DNA from: Bacteroidales bacterium
GTDB taxonomy: Bacteria > Bacteroidota > Bacteroidia > Bacteroidales > UBA932
Reading direction: 5' to 3'
Assembly (NCBI GenBank): GCA_017631875.1
Contig: JAGBSL010000012.1
Coordinates: 1 to 52,307 of the forward strand
Length of the DNA: 52,307 bases
Part shown: positions 39,373 to 51,200 of the stretch, piece after piece
Layout of the letters: every line of letters begins with the position of its first letter
Numbering within the stretch: position 1 is the first letter of the stretch
Notes under the pieces: generated by a model
What the model saw: only the letters and a program-made list of their open reading frames with translations
Told to the model about the DNA's origin: nothing
Databases searched by the model: none
Program-made: the position numbers and the translations under genes

Positions 39373-41625
39373 CTACTCTGCAGGAACAGCATCAACTACC
39401 ACTGTGTCAGAAACTGCTGTTGAGTCTGTGCACTCTACGACCTCGGCAGGAACCTCAGTCTTGTTGTAGCGTGGGAGCGGTGAGCCGAGTCCTGCCCATG
39501 CCAGCAGGTTGAACATCCAGAGGCCGCCTGCTACAACCACGAGGGCTGCGAGAGAGATCGCCCACTTCTTCCATGGAGCAAGGCCCTTCTTTGCGAACGG
39601 ATCCTTAAGCTTCATCTTAGGGAACTTGGCAGCGTCTGTGAGAGTTTCTCCGAATGGAATGCTGATCTTCGAAGCCGCATTGACAGCCCATCCGTTTGCA
39701 TTGAGGAGCGGTGCGATGTTGCGGCGGCGGAGCTTGAGCCATGCGAGGATCATTGCAGGACCTGAAATCACGAGCATGATGCCGACAAATACAAGGATGA
39801 GTTTCCACCATTCAAGATCAGAAAGGCCATCAAACAGAGCCACAAGGGCACTACCGATCATACCTAATGCCATACCGATAGCAGCAAAGATACCGGCGAA
39901 CTTGGCGATGTCGAACGGTGGAGCCGCTGCTGGCTTGCCGTCAGCGCCCGCTGCAGGAACTGCAGTCGGAGCCGCATTGATCTTGGCTGTAGCGTCTGCC
40001 ATCATCTTGGCATCCTTGTCTGCAGCGCTCTTATTGATGAGGTTCTCTACTGTCTTTGCCATTCTACGGTATGGAGACCAGAATGACTGTGCGATGCTGA
40101 TTGGGTTGTCAACAACCTTAGTGATCACTGCATCCCACTCGAGACCTGAGTTATCATAGTAGATGGCGTTCTTACCTGCAACGAGGTCACCGATCTCGCC
40201 CACAGTCACAGCTGCCACGATAGCGAGCTTGCCTGGCTTCGACTTGGTAGTACAGTCGCAGTATACGAGGAACATTCCGCTGGCTGCAGCCGATGCGTTG
40301 TGCTTTGCAGCATCAGCAACCTGCATACAGAAACGGCACTCTCTCTGGTCAATGATGAGGCGTCCTGACTGGAAGATAGCAGAAACCCCCTTTTCCTTTG
40401 TATAGAAATCACTAAGAGTCACGAAGTTACGGAGGAGTCTGTAGAAATCACGGAGAATGTGGAGGAACTTGTCCACCATCTCGATGTTTGCAGCCTCCTC
40501 AGAAAGAGCCGCGTCCTGAGCGACGAGCTCAAGGAGAGCAGCCTTCTTGTCCTCAGCGAGGAACTTCTTGACAGTCTCAAGACCGAGAGCCTCAACTGAA
40601 GCACCTGCCTTGGCACCCTTCCAAGCTGTGTAAGCAGCGAAAGCAGCACCGACAGCAGCCCAGTCAGCCTCAGTAAGCACCTTCTTGTCAGCAAAAGCTA
40701 CTGACTTCACGAGGTCAAACTGAGCAGCCCATGCCGGGTTGACCGGCTCCGAAAGATCGATCTCAGCCTTACCTGTCACGCGTGCGATAGGATATGCAGC
40801 GATCTCGTCCATCTTACCTGTGAGGTTCTCTGCGCTGATTGCCTGGATACCCGCAGTCTGCACATCAAGAGAAGCAACGCTCTCAGGAGAGAATGCAGCA
40901 AGCTTCGAGCGCATGAAGAAATCCTTCACCTTAGCATCGAGCGCATTGTAAGCAGCAATCGCAGCATCAGTCTTGTCAGCGAACGGAGCCTCAACAGCTG
41001 CGTCGCACCATGCAGCATAATCAGCGAGTGCCTTATAGAAGCCTTCTATCATCTCGGCGTTCACGCCCATTGCGCCGCTTCTGTCAGCAACGCCGCCCAT
41101 AGCGGCGACTGCAGCAGCGATCACAGCCTTTACGTCAGCGTCGTCTGACGAGCCCTCAGTTATGATGCCGTCACCATTGAAACGTGTCTTCGCAAAAATA
41201 GCAGCAACATCCTTTGTGTCAGCGAGAGAGATCACATCACCCTCCTTGCCGAGGTTCTCAAGGATCTGCTTTGCTGCAGCATATATCTTCTTTCCGTCAG
41301 CATTCTCCTGATCGATAGCGTCGAGTGAGATAGAATCCTGACCTGCAGTAAGGACATTGAGGTCCTTCACGACTGCTGAGAGCCACTTCGATGTAGCGAT
41401 CACATCGTTTACACGGATCTTTCCGTCAGCGTCTGTATCCATGTATGCAAGGCTCTTCTCGCAGATCTCGAGACCCTTTACCGGACATGAAAGGACAGTC
41501 CACATCTTAGGATCGAGCTCATCGAGATGAGCGATGTCCTCGCCTGTAGAAATTTTCACACGTGAAGCTCCGCCGATATTGGCGAACTCCCACTTGTACT
41601 TCTTTTCTTTGTTAATGATTGCCAT
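39373..41625 (-). CDS. Large membrane protein with EF-hand, unknown function
   Basis: A 750-residue protein with a canonical EF-hand loop DTDADGKIRVND at 63-74, having calcium-ligand positions 1, 3, 5 and 12. A degenerate second loop, FNGDGIITE, lies near 149. The middle is alanine-rich and helical. Two transmembrane helices lie at about 575-640, a basic stretch follows, then a third helix (LAALVVVAGGLWMFNLLAWA) near 695-715 and an acidic tail. There is no N-terminal signal peptide, so the EF-hand part may be cytoplasmic. I know of no function. It lies 41 nt downstream of the 487-residue protein gene in the same direction, so the two probably work together. Confidence 0.75.
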   Translation of the reverse strand: MAIINKEKKYKWEFANIGGASRVKISTGEDIAHLDELDPKMWTVLSCPVKGLEICEKSLAYMDTDADGKIRVNDVIATSKWLSAVVKDLNVLTAGQDSISLDAIDQENADGKKIYAAAKQILENLGKEGDVISLADTKDVAAIFAKTRFNGDGIITEGSSDDADVKAVIAAAVAAMGGVADRSGAMGVNAEMIEGFYKALADYAAWCDAAVEAPFADKTDAAIAAYNALDAKVKDFFMRSKLAAFSPESVASLDVQTAGIQAISAENLTGKMDEIAAYPIARVTGKAEIDLSEPVNPAWAAQFDLVKSVAFADKKVLTEADWAAVGAAFAAYTAWKGAKAGASVEALGLETVKKFLAEDKKAALLELVAQDAALSEEAANIEMVDKFLHILRDFYRLLRNFVTLSDFYTKEKGVSAIFQSGRLIIDQRECRFCMQVADAAKHNASAAASGMFLVYCDCTTKSKPGKLAIVAAVTVGEIGDLVAGKNAIYYDNSGLEWDAVITKVVDNPISIAQSFWSPYRRMAKTVENLINKSAADKDAKMMADATAKINAAPTAVPAAGADGKPAAAPPFDIAKFAGIFAAIGMALGMIGSALVALFDGLSDLEWWKLILVFVGIMLVISGPAMILAWLKLRRRNIAPLLNANGWAVNAASKISIPFGETLTDAAKFPKMKLKDPFAKKGLAPWKKWAISLAALVVVAGGLWMFNLLAWAGLGSPLPRYNKTEVPAEVVECTDSTAVSDTVVVDAVPAE

Positions 41626-41666: not shown

Positions 41667-43130
41667 TTAATCAATTTTCATGATATCCAATACACCGTCA
41701 CGTGTCATTGATATCCTAAAGTGATGATATTCAGCCTTGCCGTCATGCTGGAGCTGGAACACGATGTTGACATAGTAGATTTTCTCGACCTCCACACTAG
41801 TGATCCTGCCGTCGGCATCGACCGAATCGATAGGCACCACCGGGTTGTCCATCTTATGCGTAAAGCGATGCAGGTGCAGACGGAGGATCTCATTGATACC
41901 TCTCATCGGATAATCATCATTCTCGGCCAGGGCAACATCGTCAATGGTCACATGCTTACGGTACAGGAGTATCTTCTCCTCGAATATACGTGACTCATCC
42001 TCCACGGCCGAAGCCTTCTCACGCATACGCATGACCTCGGCAGGAGTCTTTGACGACGATATGAAGTCGAATCCCTCCTTTATCTCGCCGACGCGGTTCT
42101 GTCCAATGGTCACGACGGCCTTCTTGTCGTAGTATTTATTGCCGAGCTTATGAGCGAAATAGTAACGCAGGAGGTCCTTGATGCGGTCCTTGAGCATGTA
42201 GCTGACCACAAGGACGATGAACAGAGGCCATGTGATGTTTCCATACTTCACCTGCGTATGCCATGCCACCGCCGTCGCGAATATCATGGCCACGCCTGCC
42301 GCAAGGCTATAATAGATCTGCTCAAGAGCGACTCCGTCCTTCTTCTTGTCCAGACGGATATACAACTCGCTCTCAATGAATTTCTTGAGCATGCCGCGAT
42401 GGTAGATCAGCTCTCTGTCATGAACTTCGTCGTTCTTCATGACGCCATAACCCTGCGACACTTTATAATTATGTTCACGCACGATCAGACCCATGAAGTC
42501 CTCGCGGATCTTGGCATATGCCTCCGCATTGAGGGAAGCATCGATTGCGCGGATGATCCTTATGGTTCTGAGTTCCACGACATGACTCATGAACTCGTCG
42601 CACATGCGGAACAGAGTACGGGTCTTGTCAGAAACCGTCGGCACATCAATTATCTGGTACAGCGCACGGAACTTCTCCAGCACGAGGGATGAGCTGCCGA
42701 CATAATCGGCCACGAGGTAGTCAGCCGTCTCAAGCGAACGGACCGAACGAAGATGGGCCGCATGATCGCGCAGAGCGCTCTTGAATATGGCGGCGAACAT
42801 CTTCAGATGGTATTCGTATGCATCGATGGCCTCGGGGCTCGGGTTATACACCACACCCTCCAGGGCACGGCGGAGAGAGGCCAGAGGCTGTGAGTCATCG
42901 CAAGCGATCTCACGCAGAAGATATACCGGAGTGATCAGCCTGATGTTGGACTTCACGTCGCGGTAGAACTGCTTCTTGCCGTAGTTCTCCGAATTGATAT
43001 CCAGACTGTTAGGCACGAACATCCACGCGTTGACCGAAAAGTCATCGCGCTTGCCATCCTCCTTGCAGTTGAATCCGAACTTGAACTCAACCGAAAAATT
43101 ATCGTGCTTCTTCGCCTGTATAGAGATCAT
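41667..43130 (-). CDS. Membrane protein of unknown function (487 aa), partner of the EF-hand protein
   Basis: No signal peptide is present (MISIQAKKHDNFSVEFKFGF). A helical cytoplasmic N-terminal part (about 1-270) is followed by two transmembrane helices (about 273-315; SLAAGVAMIFATAVAWH and LFIVLVVSYML). The second soluble part is rich in charged residues and ends in strands (VEKIYYVNIVFQLQHDG, FRISMTRDGVLDIMKID). I do not recognise the family. The N-terminal FGFNCKEDGKRDDFSVNAWM may be a small beta domain. It is the first gene of a two-gene unit with the EF-hand protein. The region upstream holds an array of small hairpins instead of a recognisable promoter. Confidence 0.7.
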   Translation of the reverse strand: MISIQAKKHDNFSVEFKFGFNCKEDGKRDDFSVNAWMFVPNSLDINSENYGKKQFYRDVKSNIRLITPVYLLREIACDDSQPLASLRRALEGVVYNPSPEAIDAYEYHLKMFAAIFKSALRDHAAHLRSVRSLETADYLVADYVGSSSLVLEKFRALYQIIDVPTVSDKTRTLFRMCDEFMSHVVELRTIRIIRAIDASLNAEAYAKIREDFMGLIVREHNYKVSQGYGVMKNDEVHDRELIYHRGMLKKFIESELYIRLDKKKDGVALEQIYYSLAAGVAMIFATAVAWHTQVKYGNITWPLFIVLVVSYMLKDRIKDLLRYYFAHKLGNKYYDKKAVVTIGQNRVGEIKEGFDFISSSKTPAEVMRMREKASAVEDESRIFEEKILLYRKHVTIDDVALAENDDYPMRGINEILRLHLHRFTHKMDNPVVPIDSVDADGRITSVEVEKIYYVNIVFQLQHDGKAEYHHFRISMTRDGVLDIMKID

Positions 43131-43240: not shown

Positions 43241-43269
43241 TACTCCGGGGTTAGAATAACCCTGGAGTA
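43241..43269 (-). terminator. Hairpin at the end of the DASS transporter gene
   Basis: TACTCCGGGGTT (43241-43252) pairs with AACCCTGGAGTA (43258-43269) with one wobble or mismatch. It includes the stop codon. No T-tract follows, so it may protect the 3' end as much as terminate. Confidence 0.5.
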
Positions 43270-44861
43270 TAACCTAACCAATGGAGCACAGTCTCACCCC
43301 AAACGAGGATCATAAACCATGCTATGAACATCATTATGATACCGAATTTGAAGGTGTCGCTCCAGCTGTAGTGGTTTGTAGTATATAGCAGCGCTGCCGG
43401 CTTGCTGTTGAACGGCAGCACGTAAACGTGTTCGATCAGAAGGGACACAGGGAACGAAAGGCTGAGCGGCGGAAGGCCGAACTGCTGCTCCACACCGATG
43501 GCGATCGGCACGAATACAAGTGTCCTCATGTTCTTGGACTGGAAGATCAGCGCACTGAAAAGCATCAGTCCTGTAAGAAGAAGGTACATCACGAAGAACG
43601 GAGTGTTGGCAGTGATGCCGAGCGCGTCCATTCCCGCTCCGACCATGACAGCAGGAAGATCGGTGGCATTGAGACCTGATCCGATCACGTATGCTCCCGC
43701 TGAGAAGATCATAAGATGCCAAGGGATATCTACATCATTCCACTTGACAACACCGATTCCAGGCATCAACGCAATGATGGCACCGATCAGCACGACAACC
43801 TCAGCTGAAATGCCGTGCAGACTCTCTGTCACCCACATGATGACCACGCCGACGAAGATGGCCACCGACTTGAACTCATCCTTGGTCATCTTACCCATGG
43901 CGCTGAGTTCCTGACGCAGGCGATCCATACCACCGGCGATCTGAGGCTTCTTCTCCTCAGGCTTGAGAGGGAATATCAGCTTCGCACCTACGAACCAGCC
44001 GATAAGAAGCAGGATCATCGCAAGCGGGAAGGCTGCAGCCAGCCAGTCAGAGTAGATCAATGACACCGAGCTATAGGCACCGGTCAGGAGAGAGACAGCC
44101 AGAAGGTTGGCTCCCGAGCCGGTCATGAATGCACTCGCACCGATGTTGATCTGGAAAAGGTTCTGGAGCACGAGGTTACGGCCGAAGTTGTTTCGGTTGC
44201 CCTGGCTTGCTCCGAAAATTGCCGCCACGACCATGAATATAGGAAGAAGGATTGTCGCCTTGACTGTCGTAGCGGAGATGAAGAGAGACAGGACGACATT
44301 GATTACGAGGAAGCTGAAGAATATGCCCGACGCGCTCTTACCGAACTTGAGCACGAACCAGAGGGCGAATCTCTTGGCAACCTTCGTCTTGACAAGCATG
44401 CTGGCGAGAACGAAAGACAGGATGTTGAGCCACATCACCGGATGTCCGAGCTGTGCGAACGCATCCTTCTGGGTAGTCACGCCGCAGATGATTACGGCCA
44501 TGATCACCATGAGCGAAGTCAGGTAGCTCTGCACCGCCTCTGTAATCCACAGCACGATAGACGCACAGAAGATGGCGAGCATGGCGTAGCATGCCTTGAT
44601 GAAGGCCGCCTCACCGATCACGGCGAGTCTTGCCTGTGCCTTGCTTGAGAGTCCTGAGAAATCAAGGTTGTCAAACAAAGGGATGTCAATCACCCAATAT
44701 ATAAGTACGAATACAATGGCAGCGATAGGTCCGCCAAGACGGGCCATCCACTTCTCGAATCCGGACTTCTCCATCTTCGGAAGCTTCTCCACCTTGTAGT
44801 TATTCATATCCAGCGGGTCAAAGACCTGCTCCTGTTCCAGTTCTGTGTGCTTGTCGGTCAT
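43251..44861 (-). CDS. DASS/SLC13-family sodium:anion symporter
   Basis: This 536-residue inner membrane protein has about a dozen hydrophobic segments after a ~45-residue charged N-terminus. The two SLC13-type signature regions appear as FISATTVKATILLP, in the first half, and as LPFNSKPAALLYTTNHYS, in the second. The family imports dicarboxylates, citrate, sulphate or phosphate with sodium; the exact anion cannot be read here. It is the last gene of a seven-gene leftward cluster and is separated from the CYTH gene by 141 nt holding a large inverted repeat. The cluster's PiT, DUF47, Porin O/P and CYTH members argue for phosphate or a phosphorylated anion, by context only. Confidence 0.88.
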   Translation of the reverse strand: MTDKHTELEQEQVFDPLDMNNYKVEKLPKMEKSGFEKWMARLGGPIAAIVFVLIYWVIDIPLFDNLDFSGLSSKAQARLAVIGEAAFIKACYAMLAIFCASIVLWITEAVQSYLTSLMVIMAVIICGVTTQKDAFAQLGHPVMWLNILSFVLASMLVKTKVAKRFALWFVLKFGKSASGIFFSFLVINVVLSLFISATTVKATILLPIFMVVAAIFGASQGNRNNFGRNLVLQNLFQINIGASAFMTGSGANLLAVSLLTGAYSSVSLIYSDWLAAAFPLAMILLLIGWFVGAKLIFPLKPEEKKPQIAGGMDRLRQELSAMGKMTKDEFKSVAIFVGVVIMWVTESLHGISAEVVVLIGAIIALMPGIGVVKWNDVDIPWHLMIFSAGAYVIGSGLNATDLPAVMVGAGMDALGITANTPFFVMYLLLTGLMLFSALIFQSKNMRTLVFVPIAIGVEQQFGLPPLSLSFPVSLLIEHVYVLPFNSKPAALLYTTNHYSWSDTFKFGIIMMFIAWFMILVWGETVLHWLGYTPGLF

Positions 44862-45002: not shown

Positions 45003-45476
45003 TTATTTAGCCCAATTCTTATATGGGTTCTTCATGAGCATAGAGTTGTAGTACTTGACGTCTCCAGTAACCTCCTCACCGAGCCACTCTGGCTTTGCAA
45101 AAGCCTCGTCCTCAGAAGAAAGCTCAACCTCAGCCACTGTAAGGCCTTCGTTGTCACCGTAGAACTCATCCACCTCATAAGTGTGCTCGCCAGCCTCAAC
45201 GAGGTAGCGTGTCTTGTCGATCACGCCTGGCTCACAAATTTTCAGAAGTTCTTCAACTTCTGAAACAGGGATCTCCTTCTCCCACTCATAACGGCTTGCT
45301 CCGCTTGCAGAGCCGATGCCCTTGATGGTGATGAATCCCTTCTCACCCTTGATGCGAACGCGTACTGTGCGCTCAGGAACTGAGCTGAGGTAACCCTGAG
45401 TGATGCGAGTTGCCTTCTTTGCAAACGGCTTGAAGTCGCCTGCAACCAAGAATTTTCTTTCTACTTCCTGTGCCAT
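45003..45476 (-). CDS. CYTH-domain inorganic triphosphatase-like protein
   Basis: A 157-residue protein of the short CYTH/TTM type, close in size to the Clostridium tripolyphosphatase. The start at 45476 (MAQEVERKFLV) puts the hallmark ExExK motif as EVERKFL at the N-terminus. Further tunnel residues lie in RTVRVRIKGEKGFITIKG, YEWEKEIPV, KTRYLVEAG, EVDEFYG and VAEVELSSEDE, and the C-terminus has the common VTGDVKYYNSMLMKNPY. Such enzymes hydrolyse tripolyphosphate or nucleoside triphosphates in the cytoplasm with divalent metal. It follows the 212-residue gene by 4 nt. Confidence 0.92.
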   Translation of the reverse strand: MAQEVERKFLVAGDFKPFAKKATRITQGYLSSVPERTVRVRIKGEKGFITIKGIGSASGASRYEWEKEIPVSEVEELLKICEPGVIDKTRYLVEAGEHTYEVDEFYGDNEGLTVAEVELSSEDEAFAKPEWLGEEVTGDVKYYNSMLMKNPYKNWAK

Positions 45477-45480
45477 GATA

Positions 45481-46119
45481 CTACTCGTTTGCAAGTGGCT
45501 TGTCAGACATACCGATCACACGCTTGATAGCCTGGAGGTAGTTGATGTTCTCAACACCCTCGAGACCGCAGTCAGCGATGGTCTTCTTGATATCCTCGAT
45601 CTCAGTAGACTCTGAGTTGATGGTCACGATCTTAGCACCGTTGATGAGAACGTTACCAACCTCGCAGATGGTGTTGTTCACCATGTAGCCGAAACGCTGC
45701 TTGTGCACGCGTACAGCTGCGAGATCAGGATTAGCCTTCACCATGCCGATGAACTCCTCGTAAGTGTACTCATCCTTGTCAAGAGCAGGCATCTCCACCA
45801 TGAATGCAGGGAAAACCTCGTTCTCAAGCACTGCGCGTGAGATTGGGAACTCACCCTTCATGAGAGGGTTCCACTGCTCGAGGCCGTCAACTGTCTGGAC
45901 ATAAGTCTTGATGTCCATCTTGCCGTTGCGGATCTTGGTGTTGTTGATGTCATTCTTGCGTGAGATGATATAGATCTCATCGCTCTCGCGCTCCCATACC
46001 TTTTCAGGTACAGGAACCGAAAGACGAGCCATTCTCTTGTGTGCCTCGCAGAAGCACTGTCCGAATGAGCGGAACTCAAAGCGTGGCTTTGAGATCTCAC
46101 CGATTTTCAATTCTGCCAT
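45481..46119 (-). CDS. Probable CYTH/TTM-like protein (212 aa)
   Basis: This soluble protein starts MAELKIGEISKPRFEFRSFG, where FEFRSF could correspond to the ExExK strand of the TTM fold with changes at key positions. Further likely tunnel strands are SDEIYIISRKNDINNTKIRN, GKMDIKTYVQTVDG, AAVRVHKQRFGYMV, ICEVGNVLING and VTINSES. The gene is 4 nt upstream of the true CYTH gene, and this pairing favours a divergent triphosphate tunnel family member, possibly one that binds rather than cleaves polyphosphate. The assignment rests on pattern only; it may be an unrelated fold. Confidence 0.55.
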   Translation of the reverse strand: MAELKIGEISKPRFEFRSFGQCFCEAHKRMARLSVPVPEKVWERESDEIYIISRKNDINNTKIRNGKMDIKTYVQTVDGLEQWNPLMKGEFPISRAVLENEVFPAFMVEMPALDKDEYTYEEFIGMVKANPDLAAVRVHKQRFGYMVNNTICEVGNVLINGAKIVTINSESTEIEDIKKTIADCGLEGVENINYLQAIKRVIGMSDKPLANE

Positions 46120-46146: not shown

Positions 46147-46773
46147 TTACATTTCAGGAGTCTGCTCGATGTCAGCTACCTTAGCACCGTTTGCAGCGCC
46201 CTTTGTAGGGTCAGCGTATACGAACTCACCTGTTCCGTCTGGTACGCGTGAGAATGTGTGCTTCTTGTCGTTATTGAAGCCAGAAACCTGGTTCCAACCT
46301 GCACCTTCCTCACCTCTCTTGAACTCGCTGAGCTTCTCATCTGCTGCGCTATAGAGCTCGATGAACACGTTCTTCTTACCTGAAAGACCACCCTTGAACA
46401 CGTGGTTTGCAGACTCGTATACGTATGCTGGATCTCCATCCTCAGCTGGATCTGCGAGGTCAGAGCTCTCGAGAACCACAAAACCCTTAGCTGCGATAGT
46501 CATACCCTTGGCACCTGTCCAAGTTGTAGACTTGCCACCTTCCTTTGAAGAGTCATACTTAACTACGTATACACCCTCGAGTGAGAGCTCCTTGTCAGTT
46601 GTGTTGTAAAGCTCGATGAACTTGTCAGCACCTGAAAGCTCGTTGAGAACGATACCTGTTACCTTGGTCTCGTTTCCACCGTTGTTGCCGCTACCGTCAA
46701 CCTGAGGATCATTCTTAGTACATGCACTGAGTGCAACTGCAGCTGCTGCTGCGAATACGATAAACTTTTTCAT
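46147..46773 (-). CDS. Lipoprotein with lamin-tail domain
   Basis: A 208-residue lipoprotein. The signal MKKFIVFAAAAAVALSAC has the lipobox LSAC, with Cys18. After a Gly/Asn linker the lamin-tail (LTD) domain begins with VTGIVLNELSGADKFIELYN and continues with LSLEGVYVVKYD, AAKGFVVLES and NVFIELYSAADE. LTD domains are immunoglobulin-like and occur on exported bacterial proteins, often with nucleases or phosphatases. Here the domain stands alone. It lies between the Porin O/P gene and the CYTH pair and may work at the cell surface or periplasm with the porin. Confidence 0.88.
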   Translation of the reverse strand: MKKFIVFAAAAAVALSACTKNDPQVDGSGNNGGNETKVTGIVLNELSGADKFIELYNTTDKELSLEGVYVVKYDSSKEGGKSTTWTGAKGMTIAAKGFVVLESSDLADPAEDGDPAYVYESANHVFKGGLSGKKNVFIELYSAADEKLSEFKRGEEGAGWNQVSGFNNDKKHTFSRVPDGTGEFVYADPTKGAANGAKVADIEQTPEM

Positions 46774-46816: not shown

Positions 46817-48229
46817 TTAGAAAGCAACCTGGAAACGGCATGCGATCATGTGATAATCGATACCCTTGCCGCTGCCTCCGTTAAGGATGTCGCCTGGATA
46901 TGCGCATACATTACCGTTTGCATCATAGCCTGTGCTGTAAGGCTTCTTGGCAGTCTTATCTGTTCCGTCTTGCTCACCCTTACCGTTAGCAAATACGTCC
47001 TGGTCGTTATACTGGTAGTTGATCACGAACTTCACGTTTCTGGTCACGTGGAAGTTGAGACCAAGAGAGTATGCATAAGCAGAACCTCCCATCACATACT
47101 TGGACATATTGAGGTCGAGGTACTCTACGCGTGCGCAAAGCTCGATGTCTCCCCACTCCTTACCTGCGTTGATACGAGTGTACTTAGCTCCGCCGGCATC
47201 ATAGTTCTGATGACCACCGAAGAGGAGGTAACCTGCCTGAACATACCATCCCCAAGCCGGAGCAAAATTAGGAGCCTCACCGTTCATGTCGATATACTTC
47301 TGGTCGTCAACGTATGGAAGACGTGCGATGTAAGCACCCTCCCAACGGAGACCCTTGTAGTGACCTGCAAGCTCGAATGTATAAGCAAGCTCGTGATCAA
47401 GATACTTGATAGCGTCTGTGTCCATGAACTTCTTACGGTTGATACCTGTAGTGTTACGAGTGCTGTAACGTACTGCGTTGTAACCGTCAGTTGAAGAAGT
47501 CTTAGGATTTCTATAAGAAACCGCAGCACCAATGTGGAGAGAAGCGTCCTTCATCTTGTGAAGCGGACGATATACCACCTTACCTGTGTAAGACATACCG
47601 CAGTTCAGACCGTAATCCTTGTTTCCGTCCTCGATGAATGTCTGAGTCTCAGCACCCTCGAGCTCAGGTCCGAAAGCACCTGCGCTCACCCAAAGAGCCG
47701 GCATAGAATACTTTACGTTGAGACCCATGTGGCGTGAAGGAGCCAGGTAGCTCACCATTGGACGCTCCATGAACTGGAGGTAACGTGAAGTGGTGTTTCT
47801 CTGGATCGAGAAATTCTCCTTGAAGTTACCGAGCTTGATCTCGAGACCCTTTACACCGGTGAATGCGATGTAAGCATCCTTGATCTCAGGAGTACCTGAA
47901 GTCCAGTCAGTGTCGAGCTCACCGTACCAGTTCTTGTCGAGCTGAGCCTTCACTGCGAAACGGGTACGGCGCATGAGCATACCGTTACCGATCTGAGTGA
48001 GGTTCTTGTCGTATCCGAAGAATACGGCAGCGTCTCCCTGTACACGGATGTCGAACCAGAACTTGTAGTTCTGAGCCTTGTTCTGGAACACCATGATACC
48101 GTCCTGAACAGTAGCATCGACAGGGTAAGAATTCACCTTCTGTCCATACTGATTCACCTCTGCCTGCTGAGCGAAAGCAGCAATAGAAGCCATCAGTGCA
48201 ATGATTGAAGTTAAAATTACTCTTTTCAT
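46817..48229 (-). CDS. Porin O and P family outer membrane porin
   Basis: This 470-residue exported barrel has a signal peptide ending AAFAQ and a short linker. Many amphipathic strands of the phosphate-selective porin O and P family (PF07396) follow: YKFWFDIRVQGDAAVFFGYD, RRTRFAVKAQLDKNWYGELD, IKDAYIAFTGVKGLEIKLGN, KENFSIQ and RPMVSYLAPSRHMGLNVKYS. It ends in IACRFQVAF, with a terminal Phe for BAM recognition. In Pseudomonas this family passes phosphate (OprP) or polyphosphate (OprO). It lies 29 nt after the PiT-HTH regulator gene and 43 nt before the lamin-tail lipoprotein gene. Confidence 0.92.
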   Translation of the reverse strand: MKRVILTSIIALMASIAAFAQQAEVNQYGQKVNSYPVDATVQDGIMVFQNKAQNYKFWFDIRVQGDAAVFFGYDKNLTQIGNGMLMRRTRFAVKAQLDKNWYGELDTDWTSGTPEIKDAYIAFTGVKGLEIKLGNFKENFSIQRNTTSRYLQFMERPMVSYLAPSRHMGLNVKYSMPALWVSAGAFGPELEGAETQTFIEDGNKDYGLNCGMSYTGKVVYRPLHKMKDASLHIGAAVSYRNPKTSSTDGYNAVRYSTRNTTGINRKKFMDTDAIKYLDHELAYTFELAGHYKGLRWEGAYIARLPYVDDQKYIDMNGEAPNFAPAWGWYVQAGYLLFGGHQNYDAGGAKYTRINAGKEWGDIELCARVEYLDLNMSKYVMGGSAYAYSLGLNFHVTRNVKFVINYQYNDQDVFANGKGEQDGTDKTAKKPYSTGYDANGNVCAYPGDILNGGSGKGIDYHMIACRFQVAF

Positions 48230-48258: not shown

Positions 48259-49887
48259 TTATATAGATTTGATAAAATTAACAAGATTATCACCTTTGCC
48301 GAGGCCGAGCTTCTGGCGGAGCCTGTAGCGGCTGATCTCAACGCTCTTCGGGGTTATGTTCATCAGGGTCGCTATGTACTTTGACGAGAATCCCAGTCTG
48401 AGCAGGGTCGCAAGGCGTCTTTCCTGCTGCGTCATGTTAGGGAAGTTCTCCGAGAGCTTCGCATTGAAATCCTCATGGAGCGACTCTGCCTGGGCATAGA
48501 AATACTGCGAATCCACATCGCTGTCGTACGAAAGCCTCTGCTTTAGTGCCGAGCTCAATTCTGCCACCAGCCTGTCCTTTTCCTTCGGGTCATCAGTCTT
48601 CGCAAGGCGGCTGACCATGTCATCCAGAGACTCCAGGAACTCCTTCTGCTCTACGATGCTCAAGGCAACATTCATCACCTCCTGCCTCTTCTGCTCCACG
48701 GCGTTGTGCAGGGCCTGGTTCTCCGAAAGTACGACCTTGAGTTCCATGTCGCTAAGGGCACGGCTGTGCTCATATATCTGCTGACGCTGTGCATACAGGA
48801 TGCGGTCCGTTGCTTCTCTCTGGCTGCGCTGACCTCTTGCATAACCCGCAAATGCCAGGGAAACAAGGATGAGAAGCGATGCCGCCATGACAACGAAACT
48901 CACCATCGCATCCTCGGCAGCAACGCCCTTTATCTTCAGCATCATGAATGTAAGAAGGAAAGCTCCAGCAGGAGCTGCAACCATGGCAATCCCCTCCCTT
49001 ACATAATACTCGTCGGAAACCATGCGCGAGCGCTGAGCGGCCTCCGCACCGGCAATCGACGACATCACGAGCGCAGACACCGAAAGCGGTGCTGGAGACA
49101 TATATATAATATGTGTAGTAGCGTCAAACGAGAAGAACAGAAGGGTCGCTGCAACTGAGAGCCCGACCGAAACCACCGAATAGATGGAGAACTCGGCAAA
49201 GAGAGCCGAATAGTCCTCGCTTGCGGACTGGCCTACAAAGCGGGACAAGATCATGAAGATGGCAGCGATTACAACTGCCAAGACGATTACAACCTTCTCA
49301 CTTGCAATCATATGACCGACACCTGTCACGAAACCTCCCCAATTGAATCCGACTGCAGCCGCAGTCAGGATTATACATATGATCGCGATAAGCCTCATAT
49401 AGTGCGAGAGGGTTATCATATGAATGTGCGTCCTTGAAAAGATGCCACGAAGCAGGGCCCTGATGCCTGCCGAGAGAATGAACGCCATGACTGGAGCGCC
49501 GATGAATGACATCATGAATCCTCTTTCAAGTCCCTGACCATCAACAAGCCTCCATGCTGCCAGAGCGCCGACGAATGCATAGACGACGGAGGCCTTGATG
49601 GAGAAGAACTTCAGGGTCAGAAGAATTATGAATGAAGACATGAGGGCAAGAAGTACGGAACTGCAATCCATCGAGGCCGGACCGATATGGGTGAAGGCTG
49701 AAACAGCCACGGAACCTTTAGCGCTGATGAAAAGGGCAGGAAGGAAGAACAGCAACACCACGCGGTGCAGATTTCTGGTCCTTATTGCACAAGTCGGCGA
49801 GTACACCCCGAAAAGGGTGTCCTGCTCATTGGTGAAGAACCAAAGAGACACTGCAGACATGAACAATATGAGACAGAAGATTCCCAT
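48259..49887 (-). CDS. Degenerate PiT phosphate permease fused to a LuxR-type HTH (membrane-bound regulator)
   Basis: A 542-residue fusion. Residues 1 to about 345 form a polytopic domain with the two-half layout of PiT permeases. In the first half, an N-terminal helix leads to YSPTCAIRTRNLHRVVLLF, then FSIKASVVYAFVGALAAWRL and GFMMSFIGAPVMAFILSAGI. In the second half, GHMIAS, FVGQSASEDYSALFAE, and PAPLSVSALVMSSIAGAEA follow. The permease signatures GxNDxANA and PxSxTH are not conserved, so transport is doubtful. Next comes a coiled coil (about 365-450) and a GerE/LuxR-type HTH at about 478-542 (MTQQERRLATLLRLGFSSKY, SVEISRYRLRQKLGLG). It sits 2 nt behind a DUF47 gene, the normal partner of PiT. 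I infer a phosphate-responsive transcription factor. Confidence 0.8.
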   Translation of the reverse strand: MGIFCLILFMSAVSLWFFTNEQDTLFGVYSPTCAIRTRNLHRVVLLFFLPALFISAKGSVAVSAFTHIGPASMDCSSVLLALMSSFIILLTLKFFSIKASVVYAFVGALAAWRLVDGQGLERGFMMSFIGAPVMAFILSAGIRALLRGIFSRTHIHMITLSHYMRLIAIICIILTAAAVGFNWGGFVTGVGHMIASEKVVIVLAVVIAAIFMILSRFVGQSASEDYSALFAEFSIYSVVSVGLSVAATLLFFSFDATTHIIYMSPAPLSVSALVMSSIAGAEAAQRSRMVSDEYYVREGIAMVAAPAGAFLLTFMMLKIKGVAAEDAMVSFVVMAASLLILVSLAFAGYARGQRSQREATDRILYAQRQQIYEHSRALSDMELKVVLSENQALHNAVEQKRQEVMNVALSIVEQKEFLESLDDMVSRLAKTDDPKEKDRLVAELSSALKQRLSYDSDVDSQYFYAQAESLHEDFNAKLSENFPNMTQQERRLATLLRLGFSSKYIATLMNITPKSVEISRYRLRQKLGLGKGDNLVNFIKSI

Positions 49888-49889
49888 CC

Positions 49890-50537
49890 TTACAAAGTCC
49901 TTTTGATTGCCATTACCGCCAGCTGATCTGCGACATCCTCCGCACCTTTTGCAAGGTTCTCGATGTGCAGGGCGAAATATCTGAGGTGGAATTTCTCAGA
50001 GAGCTTCAGAGACGGCATGTTATGGAAAACCGTCCTCTTGATTGTCTGGGCATACTTCACAGCCTCCTTCTCGTAGAAATAGGCACGGCTGATCTTGTCA
50101 GGCACCTGCTCGGGATTTCTGAAATATGCTGTCGCTGCAGGAATGACGGACTCCACTGCCAATGTAGAGAATTCGGTAAGCTTGATGAATTCCTGATTCA
50201 GTTCCGACGGGATGAAGGGAGTCTCGATCTCGAACTGGAAGAGACTGTCGTTGAGAAGGTCGGTGATATGCCTTGTCTTTTCGAAAAGGCGCATCATGTC
50301 AGCACGGGAACGCACAAGGGCTGTCTGGGTGTAAAGAGAGTTCTCGATCTCGCGTCTGAGCACAGCGGCATCAGAGTCGATTGCCGACATGCGCATGAGG
50401 TTTGTATTGAACTCATCGGTGTTTGAATACAGATAATTTCTAACACCTTCCTTGAAGACCACGACAGACTGGCCCATAAGGTCAAAATACCTGTCGATAT
50501 CCTCGATGAGTCTATTGGCTTTTCTGCGTCCGAACAT
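49890..50537 (-). CDS. DUF47 family PhoU-like protein
   Basis: A 215-residue all-helical cytoplasmic protein. Typical DUF47 features are LIEDIDRYFDLMGQSVVVFK at the N-terminus, SDAAVLRREIENSLYTQTAL with the acidic metal-binding region, RADMMRLFEKTRHITDLLND, EKEAVKYAQTIKRTVFHN and HIENLAKGAEDVADQLAVMA at the C-terminus. DUF47 proteins resemble PhoU and are usually encoded next to PiT permeases, where they are thought to gate or sense transport. Here the next gene, 2 nt away, is the PiT-HTH fusion. It is the first gene of the seven-gene cluster, with a -7 box about 25 nt upstream. Confidence 0.93.
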   Translation of the reverse strand: MFGRRKANRLIEDIDRYFDLMGQSVVVFKEGVRNYLYSNTDEFNTNLMRMSAIDSDAAVLRREIENSLYTQTALVRSRADMMRLFEKTRHITDLLNDSLFQFEIETPFIPSELNQEFIKLTEFSTLAVESVIPAATAYFRNPEQVPDKISRAYFYEKEAVKYAQTIKRTVFHNMPSLKLSEKFHLRYFALHIENLAKGAEDVADQLAVMAIKRTL

Positions 50538-50561: not shown

Positions 50562-50569
50562 CAAATATA
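50562..50569 (-). promoter_or_regulatory. Candidate -7 box for the DUF47/PiT-HTH cluster
   Basis: TATATTTG on the minus strand fits TAnnTTTG and lies 24 nt before the DUF47 start. No TTG is present at the -33 position, which may mean that an activator is needed. Confidence 0.5.
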
Positions 50570-50607
50570 GCAAAATCTTGATTGTAGAGTATACCGATGA
50601 AATAAGA

Positions 50608-50637
50608 GAGGTGGAAACATCCGCTCGCTTCCACCTC
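50608..50637 (-). terminator. Possible terminator of the lipoprotein gene
   Basis: GAGGTGGAA (50608-50616) pairs perfectly with TTCCACCTC (50629-50637). On the minus strand it is followed by the moderately T-rich CTTATTTC. Confidence 0.5.
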
Positions 50638-50722
50638 GTAGATGTCTAATTATCAATACTTTATAGCAATTTTTCAGAATACGGAAATTGACCACATATA
50701 GAGGAATTGTAGAGTTTTTTTC

Positions 50723-51151
50723 TTAGTCTATAGGGGTCATTTCAACGTGAAAATCCGCTGCTTCATGCGCTGAAATCAGCTTTTCCTCATGCGCATATGT
50801 ACCGTTTTGAGCACCGTCGACATCATCACACTGAAGGAAGAAAAGCTCGGTCTTTTCGTATGGATAAATCGTGATTTCCTCCTCGACCTTACCGTCTGCG
50901 GAAGTATAGAAAGTCTTTGAAGACTCGTTTATAAAGATATGCTGGACTCCGCTTGTCGAAGCATTCTCCGATGCTGGAGTAAGCGTCACCTTTATGCCTC
51001 TGATCGGTTTCCCTGTCTCGGCATCCTCGACCAGTCCTTCGATCCAATGAGTCTCAGGATCGACAGGAATTCCGTAACAGGCAGTAACCATGGTCGTGCA
51101 GCCAAGAAGAGCCAGCAGACGGCCGAAATACTTTATGAACAGTTCTCTCAT
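50723..51151 (-). CDS. Radical SAM-associated putative lipoprotein
   Basis: This 142-residue protein, with start taken at 51151, begins MRELFIKYFGRLLALLGCTT. The signal ends in VTACYGIPVDPE, with Cys25 as the likely lipid site. The 'YGxPv' just after the cysteine and the following EGLVEDAETGKPIRGIKVTL match the small Bacteroidales lipoproteins that NCBI names radical SAM-associated putative lipoprotein. No radical SAM gene is visible in this window. A carboxypeptidase-regulatory-like beta fold makes up the rest. It is divergent from the MarR gene with interleaved promoters. Confidence 0.62.
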   Translation of the reverse strand: MRELFIKYFGRLLALLGCTTMVTACYGIPVDPETHWIEGLVEDAETGKPIRGIKVTLTPASENASTSGVQHIFINESSKTFYTSADGKVEEEITIYPYEKTELFFLQCDDVDGAQNGTYAHEEKLISAHEAADFHVEMTPID

Positions 51152-51200
51152 AGTCTTATGGATTTTGAACAGGTTATAGATGCATGATGACAACGCATTG

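Follow-up and report, generated by a model that had tools for sequence, protein, structure and literature searches.

A gene from a Bacteroidales bacterium encodes what is, as the best explanation of the evidence as a whole, probably a membrane-tethered transcription factor derived from a PiT-type phosphate transporter. The window analysed here is the whole stretch of 52,307 nt from contig JAGBSL010000012.1 of assembly GCA_017631875.1, and all positions refer to it. The gene and a preceding gene for a PhoU-like DUF47 protein lie on the minus strand with 2 nt between them, at the coordinates first given (Table 1). The initial annotation had described a PiT-like membrane domain and an HTH in one frame behind DUF47, and open reading frames, Pfam and the predicted fold bear out that observation. 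A wider proposal can be built on observations of architecture, fold, descent, a conserved operon, signature change on a tree and phased boxes specific to that operon. According to it, a nutrient transporter would have become a DNA-binding transcription factor stepwise, with intermediates still alive, reading phosphate status, binding phased boxes at its own operon and working with a PhoU-like partner; we regard the case for this full scheme as evenly balanced.

Table 1. Positions of the fusion gene, its domains, the surrounding operon and upstream elements in the window
Feature	Position	Strand	Remarks
TATATTTG, agrees with TAnnTTTG	50562..50569	-	Bacteroidota -7 consensus
Distal box CTCTACA, within CTCTACAATTCCTCTATA, imperfect 11-bp tandem	50708..50714	-	
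Proximal box CTCTACA, 13 nt before TAnnTTTG element	50583..50589	-	
DUF47 (PhoU-like, PF01865) gene, 2 nt before fusion	49890..50537	-	Pfam E 7.6e-6, above cut-off
Fusion ORF: PiT-derived membrane protein with C-terminal LuxR-type HTH	48259..49887	-	542 aa
PiT-fold domain, residues 1-324	48916..49887	-	
PiT signature 1 position, residues 18-27: FTNEQDTLFG replaces GANDxxNxFG; acid kept is E21	49807..49836	-	column map, motif tables
PiT signature 2 position, residues 180-189: GFNWGGFVTG replaces GANNIANVMG; N182 kept	49321..49350	-	column map, motif tables
Additional TM helix, residues 328-346, after PiT core, then basic stretch	48850..48906	-	
Predicted long helix / coiled coil joining membrane part to HTH, residues 350-478	48454..48840	-	AF2
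LuxR/GerE-type HTH, residues 481-542	48262..48447	-	Pfam
Porin O/P family (PF07396), gene after fusion	46817..48229	-	E 1.2e-30
LTD-domain protein (PF00932)	46147..46773	-	E 5e-9; lipoprotein-like start by eye, LPAM_1 only E 0.19
Conserved operon protein without annotation, 212 aa	45481..46119	-	82% mean column identity, 14 Bacteroidales rows
CYTH / triphosphate tunnel enzyme (PF01928)	45003..45494	-	E 9e-16
DASS-family anion symporter (PF00939), end of conserved block	43251..44861	-	E 2e-48; TIGR00785 just below cut-off

Architecture and ancestry of the fusion protein

When 60 aligned window-family rows, all lacking an intact signature, were used for structure prediction, residues 1-324 took a PiT fold like that of TmPiT (6l85). 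Direct sequence searches found no PiT: the window protein alone has no PF01384 (PHO4) match in a Pfam scan, no PiT was returned when solved structures (PDB) were searched by sequence with this protein or with a six-row window-family membrane profile, and hhalign of the window-family profile against one 746-aa PiT gave nothing. The kinship of the window protein is therefore established only via relatives, profiles and fold. A relative 67% identical to it has a PHO4 match with an E value of 7e-7, under the family cut-off, and several of the nearest relatives of that protein carry PF01384 in precomputed annotation. The window-family profile matches intact fusion members in hhalign (E 5e-12), and an intact fusion matches TmPiT in sequence (E 8e-24). 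Among 39 fusions, GerE was detected in 38 and PHO4 in 33 at E <=0.01. On these sequence and fold comparisons the membrane domain is of PiT ancestry, and the PiT likeness claimed for it initially has held up in the predicted fold and in the profile match to intact fusions.

The C-terminus matches GerE (PF00196) above the curated cut-off (E 3.3e-6), in agreement with the HTH assignment made initially. In the linker region AF2 places a helix over residues 327-430 and more helices after it, parts of them at low confidence. A hydrophobic helix follows the PiT core in all fusion rows examined, mostly with basic residues next to it, whereas the four PiT-only rows that were checked all stop without an additional TM helix. 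In the window protein this helix starts past the part aligned with TmPiT; in eight signature-less rows (the G832-like group) a further helix starts exactly at the end of the aligned core, and could be the last core helix instead. Because both termini of PiT proteins are thought to be outside, an additional TM helix would place the HTH in the cytoplasm.

The membrane profile was run against 295 genomes of the order and matched in 19; several of the matches are intact PiT proteins (signatures GANDAAN and GANNIAN) that carry a similar coil and HTH. When an intact fusion was used as query in a second scan of the order (344 genomes), 30 genomes matched at E <=1e-45; in 18 of these the match spans almost the whole query, and one of the 18 has an in-frame stop. 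A family scan around G002 identified an HTH-bearing ORF in 20 of 199 genomes (15 signature-less and five intact). These order and family scans were chosen for the fusion counts over a phylum-wide scan with the intact fusion, in which the matches listed were mostly other coil-HTH proteins and HTH-less PiT genes. Two loci were left out of the counts: L110 in G080, with an in-frame stop, and L095 in G265, which a contig end truncates; in-frame stops were reported in the L110 fusion gene and in the PiT-only genes L104 and L105. Of 120 listed database members, a few bear automated names such as 'phosphate/sulfate permease/DNA-binding CsgD family transcriptional regulator', so annotation pipelines already detect the fusion. 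No published PiT-HTH fusion was found at the level of titles and the beginnings of abstracts, a search in which most subscription literature fell outside the coverage. One contig labelled as a Burkholderiaceae MAG (L007) has a fragment 72% identical to the window protein, and is probably misbinned Bacteroidales.

Signature residues, descent and constraint

At the aligned places the window family has TxE for AND, GxNWGG for GANNIA (GLNWSG in one row), and PLSVS or PLSMS where PiT has PVSST. Residues T19 and E21 are invariant in the 60 window-family rows, as are N182, W183, G185 and G189. Across the 26 signature-less rows, the G, the A and the second N of signature 1 are absent at their places, apart from a single row with A where the G would be; no row retains the final N of signature 2, and the T and Q of the PVSTSQ motif are gone in all, or all but one. 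The lost positions are replaced differently in different lineages. The D position of signature 1 holds D in 10 and E in 16 of these rows, and the N of the second-half GAN is N in 26/26, as it is in 21/21 intact rows. The initial statement that the permease signature is not kept is thus correct for most positions, but not for this acid and this asparagine. Because they are retained in all 26 rows, the old site appears to have been re-tooled rather than wiped, and with one acid and one asparagine kept it probably serves as a sensing pocket. Phosphate transport was most likely lost in the window's clade, judging from the replacement of most of the Na/phosphate signature.

For the phylogeny, 44 rows were used, of which 21 have the signature intact, three altered (first signature GSKD, GTND and GAQG) and 20 lost. 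The tree was built from DUF47 and the coil-HTH part, with the membrane domain excluded, and rooted at midpoint. All 20 signature-less rows form one clade (support 100/98), the intact rows lie in a neighbouring clade and outside the signature-less clade, and the three partly altered rows require two further changes. The presence of intact, partly altered and signature-less members on this tree supports the initial idea of a transporter domain having been turned into part of an HTH regulator.

Mean pairwise identities were compared between two sets of 14 rows that we selected, one from the 20 signature-less rows and one from the 21 intact rows; the three partial rows were left out. The intact rows average 64% in the membrane domain, 40% in the coil and 61% in the HTH, against 24%, 42% and 73%, respectively, in the signature-less rows. 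In four near pairs, the membrane domain has dN/dS values of 0.12-0.18 and the HTH values of 0-0.02. Constraint has shifted from the transporter part to the DNA-binding end, and the membrane domain is still under selection. The same four pairs led us to reject the reading of a decaying transporter gene en route to loss. The disappearance of most of the signature and the fast divergence of the membrane domain would suit it, but the dN/dS values, together with open frames and an operon order maintained in the signature-less rows used, make it very improbable.

The genomes were also inspected for other phosphate transporters; several are incomplete assemblies, so absences are weak. The PF02690 Na/Pi transporter is present in 19/19 signature-less genomes versus 18/24 intact or partial ones. 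Another PiT occurs in eight of the 19 signature-less genomes, with none seen in 11, and PstB (TIGR00972, E 1e-90 or better) in nine of 43 genomes, one of them signature-less, a count that adds little here. Since the signature-less genomes have other phosphate importers (PF02690 in all, another PiT in eight), loss of transport by the fusion would be affordable; since 11 show no other PiT, a residual transport role is possible. Transporter redundancy as the reason for signature loss is thus partly supported.

These data bear on whether the membrane domain is still a transporter, of another anion or with a re-tooled site, while the HTH merely autoregulates expression. Purifying selection on the domain is consistent with this, as are the signature 1 acid and the first asparagine of signature 2 kept in 26/26 rows, the conservation of the replaced positions in the window family and the persistence of PVSST as PLSVS. 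We nevertheless consider it quite unlikely, given that the G, the A and the second N of signature 1, T and Q in PVSTSQ and the final N in signature 2 each survive in at most one of the 26 rows, that identity in the membrane domain has fallen to 24%, and that all 19 signature-less genomes have another Na/Pi transporter.

A separate 746-aa PiT gene was seen in G001 and G002 (L009 and L008, respectively). It is divergent from what looks by eye like a response regulator gene, and the C-terminal half of its product, also by eye, resembles PhoU. It is likely the main phosphate transporter of these genomes.

The conserved operon and its upstream boxes

The window DUF47 protein scores 25.9 bits against PF01865, with a cut-off of 24.4. 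The pairing with DUF47 claimed in the initial annotation proved general: the gene is directly upstream in 39/39 HTH-length fusions, with a gap of -4 to 205 nt. A porin O/P gene is directly downstream in 36 of the 39, the exceptions being G151 (contig end), G691 (CYTH gene instead) and G274 (646 nt in view). In 19 extended loci, some cut by contig ends, we found the LTD gene 13 times, the 212-aa protein 15 times, CYTH 14 times and the DASS symporter 10 times, and the order LTD, 212-aa protein, CYTH, DASS held wherever all were present.

The nearest PDB entries to the CYTH protein are 3typ (E 6e-20) and 2fbl (NE1496, E 2e-19), the latter being what we take to be the inorganic triphosphatase of Nitrosomonas europaea. 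By this likeness the operon protein is likely an inorganic triphosphatase, and the named parts of the operon would fit phosphate or condensed-phosphate handling. According to PMC3440374, a CYTH enzyme from Nitrosomonas europaea acts as a specific inorganic triphosphatase.

The 212-aa protein at 45481-46119 has no convincing match in Pfam or PDB. A CYTH-like reading of it, made by eye, was dropped, as it had no support in Pfam or PDB and a four-row AF2 model was of no use (pLDDT 36.6). After the DASS gene come two large ORFs on the minus strand (39373-41625 and 41667-43130) that have no Pfam match and are membrane proteins by eye; they stay near the DASS gene in the near relatives L002, L003 and L005.

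Upstream of DUF47 little is conserved among near relatives apart from CTCTACAATTCCTCT. In 14 non-redundant signature-less upstream regions there are 26 copies of the heptamer CTCTACA, where 1000 simulations averaged 0.38 and never exceeded 3; the corresponding figures for 17 intact regions are 20 copies, a simulated mean of 0.42 and a maximum of 3. CTCTACA is the top 7-mer with at least two G/C in the signature-less set (11/14 sequences) and in a separate set of intact and partial members (10/18). The form was widened after viewing the sequences, from CTCTACA to CACTACA and then CCCTACA; the intact set was tested with CTCTACA as derived from the other clade, and the last test applied the final form without change. 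CHCTACA was found in 33 of 36 fusion operons, against none of 23 PiT-only DUF47 operons and six of 126 other genes. The 36 operons exclude the near-copies L001, L002, L004, L135, L167, L168 and L173. The PiT-only control began with 27 loci picked for a detected DUF47 upstream, of which four with less than 150 nt of upstream sequence were dropped, and the other genes are those ORFs of the 19 extended loci that span at least 150 aa and have at least 300 nt of sequence before them. When the fixed pattern was finally applied to the two HTH-bearing fusions most distant from the rest, each had two boxes, which brings the count to 35/38 (L094 and L097 were absent from the first box counts and were added in this final test); the truncated L095 has two boxes as well. 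No CHCTACA box was found in three of the 38 fusions, G691, G748 and G831. G691 is the only fusion without a GerE match, whereas G748, for which only 206 nt were available, and G831 have a good GerE match and, by eye, the near-forms CTATACA and CTTTACA.

Adjacent boxes are spaced by 11, 22, 32-33, 41-43, 54-56, 65-66 bp and so on, and three late loci gave further spacings of 41, 55 and 97. The best-fitting period is 11.5 bp when the full set is used and 10.7 bp in a thinned set; 2000 random placements never reached this periodicity, in a test that only partly removes relatedness between loci. Sites are mostly in one orientation (68 forward, 12 reverse). The tandem box has seven matches in six genomes: two exact and one with a single mismatch at the operon (G764, G827 and G835), and four, each with one mismatch, off the operon, equal to the four of a reversed-pattern control; four of the six genomes scanned have no exact tandem. 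Within the 52-kb window, ACTCTACAATT with at most one mismatch occurs twice, both times before DUF47, and 12 of 100 shuffles also reach two; bare CHCTACA occurs 16 times against 14.2 expected, which is chance level. As these window counts are near chance, the evidence for the boxes is comparative and not window-based.

The Bacteroidota -7 consensus is TAnnTTTG. In 23 of 36 loci such an element precedes DUF47 by 25-43 nt; PiT-only operons have one somewhere upstream in 18/23 cases, with the boxes absent. Because the boxes lie upstream of this promoter-like element, an activator role is favoured, while repression by the fusion is possible. The CHCTACA boxes are a candidate operator, strongly associated by sequence with fusion operons, and their specificity to these operons supports the regulator part of the initial reading.

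The boxes might instead serve another regulator, such as a PhoB-like response regulator. LuxR-type proteins usually use inverted repeats, and 11-bp direct repeats resemble Pho boxes; the boxes are direct phased repeats with the orientation bias noted above, as this alternative would predict. It is unlikely, however, when exact tandem boxes in the six genomes stand at the fusion operon only, and both the PiT-only DUF47 operons and the GerE-less fusion of G691 are boxless. A reading of the CTCTACA boxes as genome-wide Pho boxes was likewise weakened by the confinement of exact tandems to the operon.

Between the two boxes of the window, at 50608-50637, lies an inverted repeat, GAGGTGGAAGC...GTTTCCACCTC, followed by TCTTATTT. 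It looks like a terminator of the gene at 50723-51193 or a regulatory hairpin.

Proposed mechanism and related systems

We favour a mechanism in which a still intact ancestral PiT domain would have acquired the extra TM helix, the coiled coil and the LuxR-type HTH and so become a single-chain transporter-regulator, encoded next to its PhoU-like partner DUF47. The clade of the window would then have had most of its Na/phosphate signature replaced, with the PiT-like domain probably kept as a sensing pocket. The HTH, oligomerised via the coiled coil, would bind the boxes, and membrane-tethered multimers would suit phased sites. The fusion would thereby control its own operon (DUF47, itself, porin, lipoprotein, triphosphatase and DASS symporter). 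Less certainly, its activity may depend on phosphate status, which either the PiT-like domain would read or DUF47 would relay. Phosphate as the ligand, DUF47 as modulator, and an HTH switched by sensing rather than constitutively bound are parts of the initial proposal that we infer. The release of the HTH that this proposal allowed for finds no support in these data.

A different role is conceivable for the PiT-like domain, that of a mere anchor, with the signal coming from DUF47 touching the coiled coil or from another partner. This is a possible but somewhat doubtful reading. DUF47 adjoins the fusion in 39/39 cases, and in the signature-less clade DUF47 is 59% identical versus 24% for the membrane domain. 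On the other hand, a PiT-sized domain is a lot for selection to maintain as an anchor, and the former site still has two of its polar residues throughout.

The nearest described kind is the CbrA transceptor. CbrA is called rare and combines an SLC5 transporter with a histidine kinase (PMC13022988), its parts being SLC5 transporter, STAC and histidine kinase (PMC13022988, PMC7096432); the SLC5 domain is said to take up histidine (PMC13022988). CbrA resembles the fusion in having a transporter and a regulatory output on one chain, and a small partner just upstream, CbrX there and DUF47 here. It differs in transporter family and in output, which is a kinase in CbrA and a same-chain DNA-binding HTH in the fusion; a Pfam scan of the window fusion found no histidine kinase domain, its output being GerE. 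The histidine uptake ascribed to the SLC5 domain also contrasts with a transport signature mostly lost in the window's clade.

Other known proteins share single parts of this design. CadC and ToxR are membrane-tethered one-component regulators with a single TM helix and a periplasmic sensor; they also tether a DNA-binding domain to the inner membrane, but are not transporter-derived. Many ORFs of Bacteroidota, for example of 538-1054 aa, have the same coil and LuxR-type output with other N-terminal parts. PiT/PHO4 proteins (PF01384; TmPiT, 6l85) share with the window protein the fold of residues 1-324, ancestry, the DUF47 gene partner, one acid and one asparagine, whereas in the window protein the rest of both signatures is replaced and an extra TM helix, a coiled coil and an HTH are added.

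A transporter-derived protein that binds its own promoter may, if such binding is demonstrated, merit a class to itself. Discussion of phosphate sensing in bacteria largely centres on Pst-PhoR-PhoU; the fusion would link a phosphate-transporter fold to a promoter by another route, in a single chain, and its candidate operator can be tested directly. The PiT/SLC20 fold has also been proposed as a phosphate sensor in animals, and a living series from transporter to regulator could offer a handle on the residues that separate transport from sensing in this fold. The fusion also hints at a function for a conserved Bacteroidales operon with a porin, a triphosphatase, an anion symporter and an unnamed, highly conserved protein.

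DUF47-PiT pairs without an HTH have the same DUF47 and PiT core but lack the HTH, the boxes and, in the four rows checked, the extra TM helix. In L101 (the same locus as L041), L104 and L105, an HTH-less PiT follows DUF47 and is itself followed by the CYTH gene or that of the 212-aa protein, so the link of PiT with these genes is independent of the HTH fusion. L120 (G691) has intact PiT signatures, a C-terminus without a GerE match, no boxes and the CYTH gene next in place of a porin, and looks like a return towards a plain transporter.
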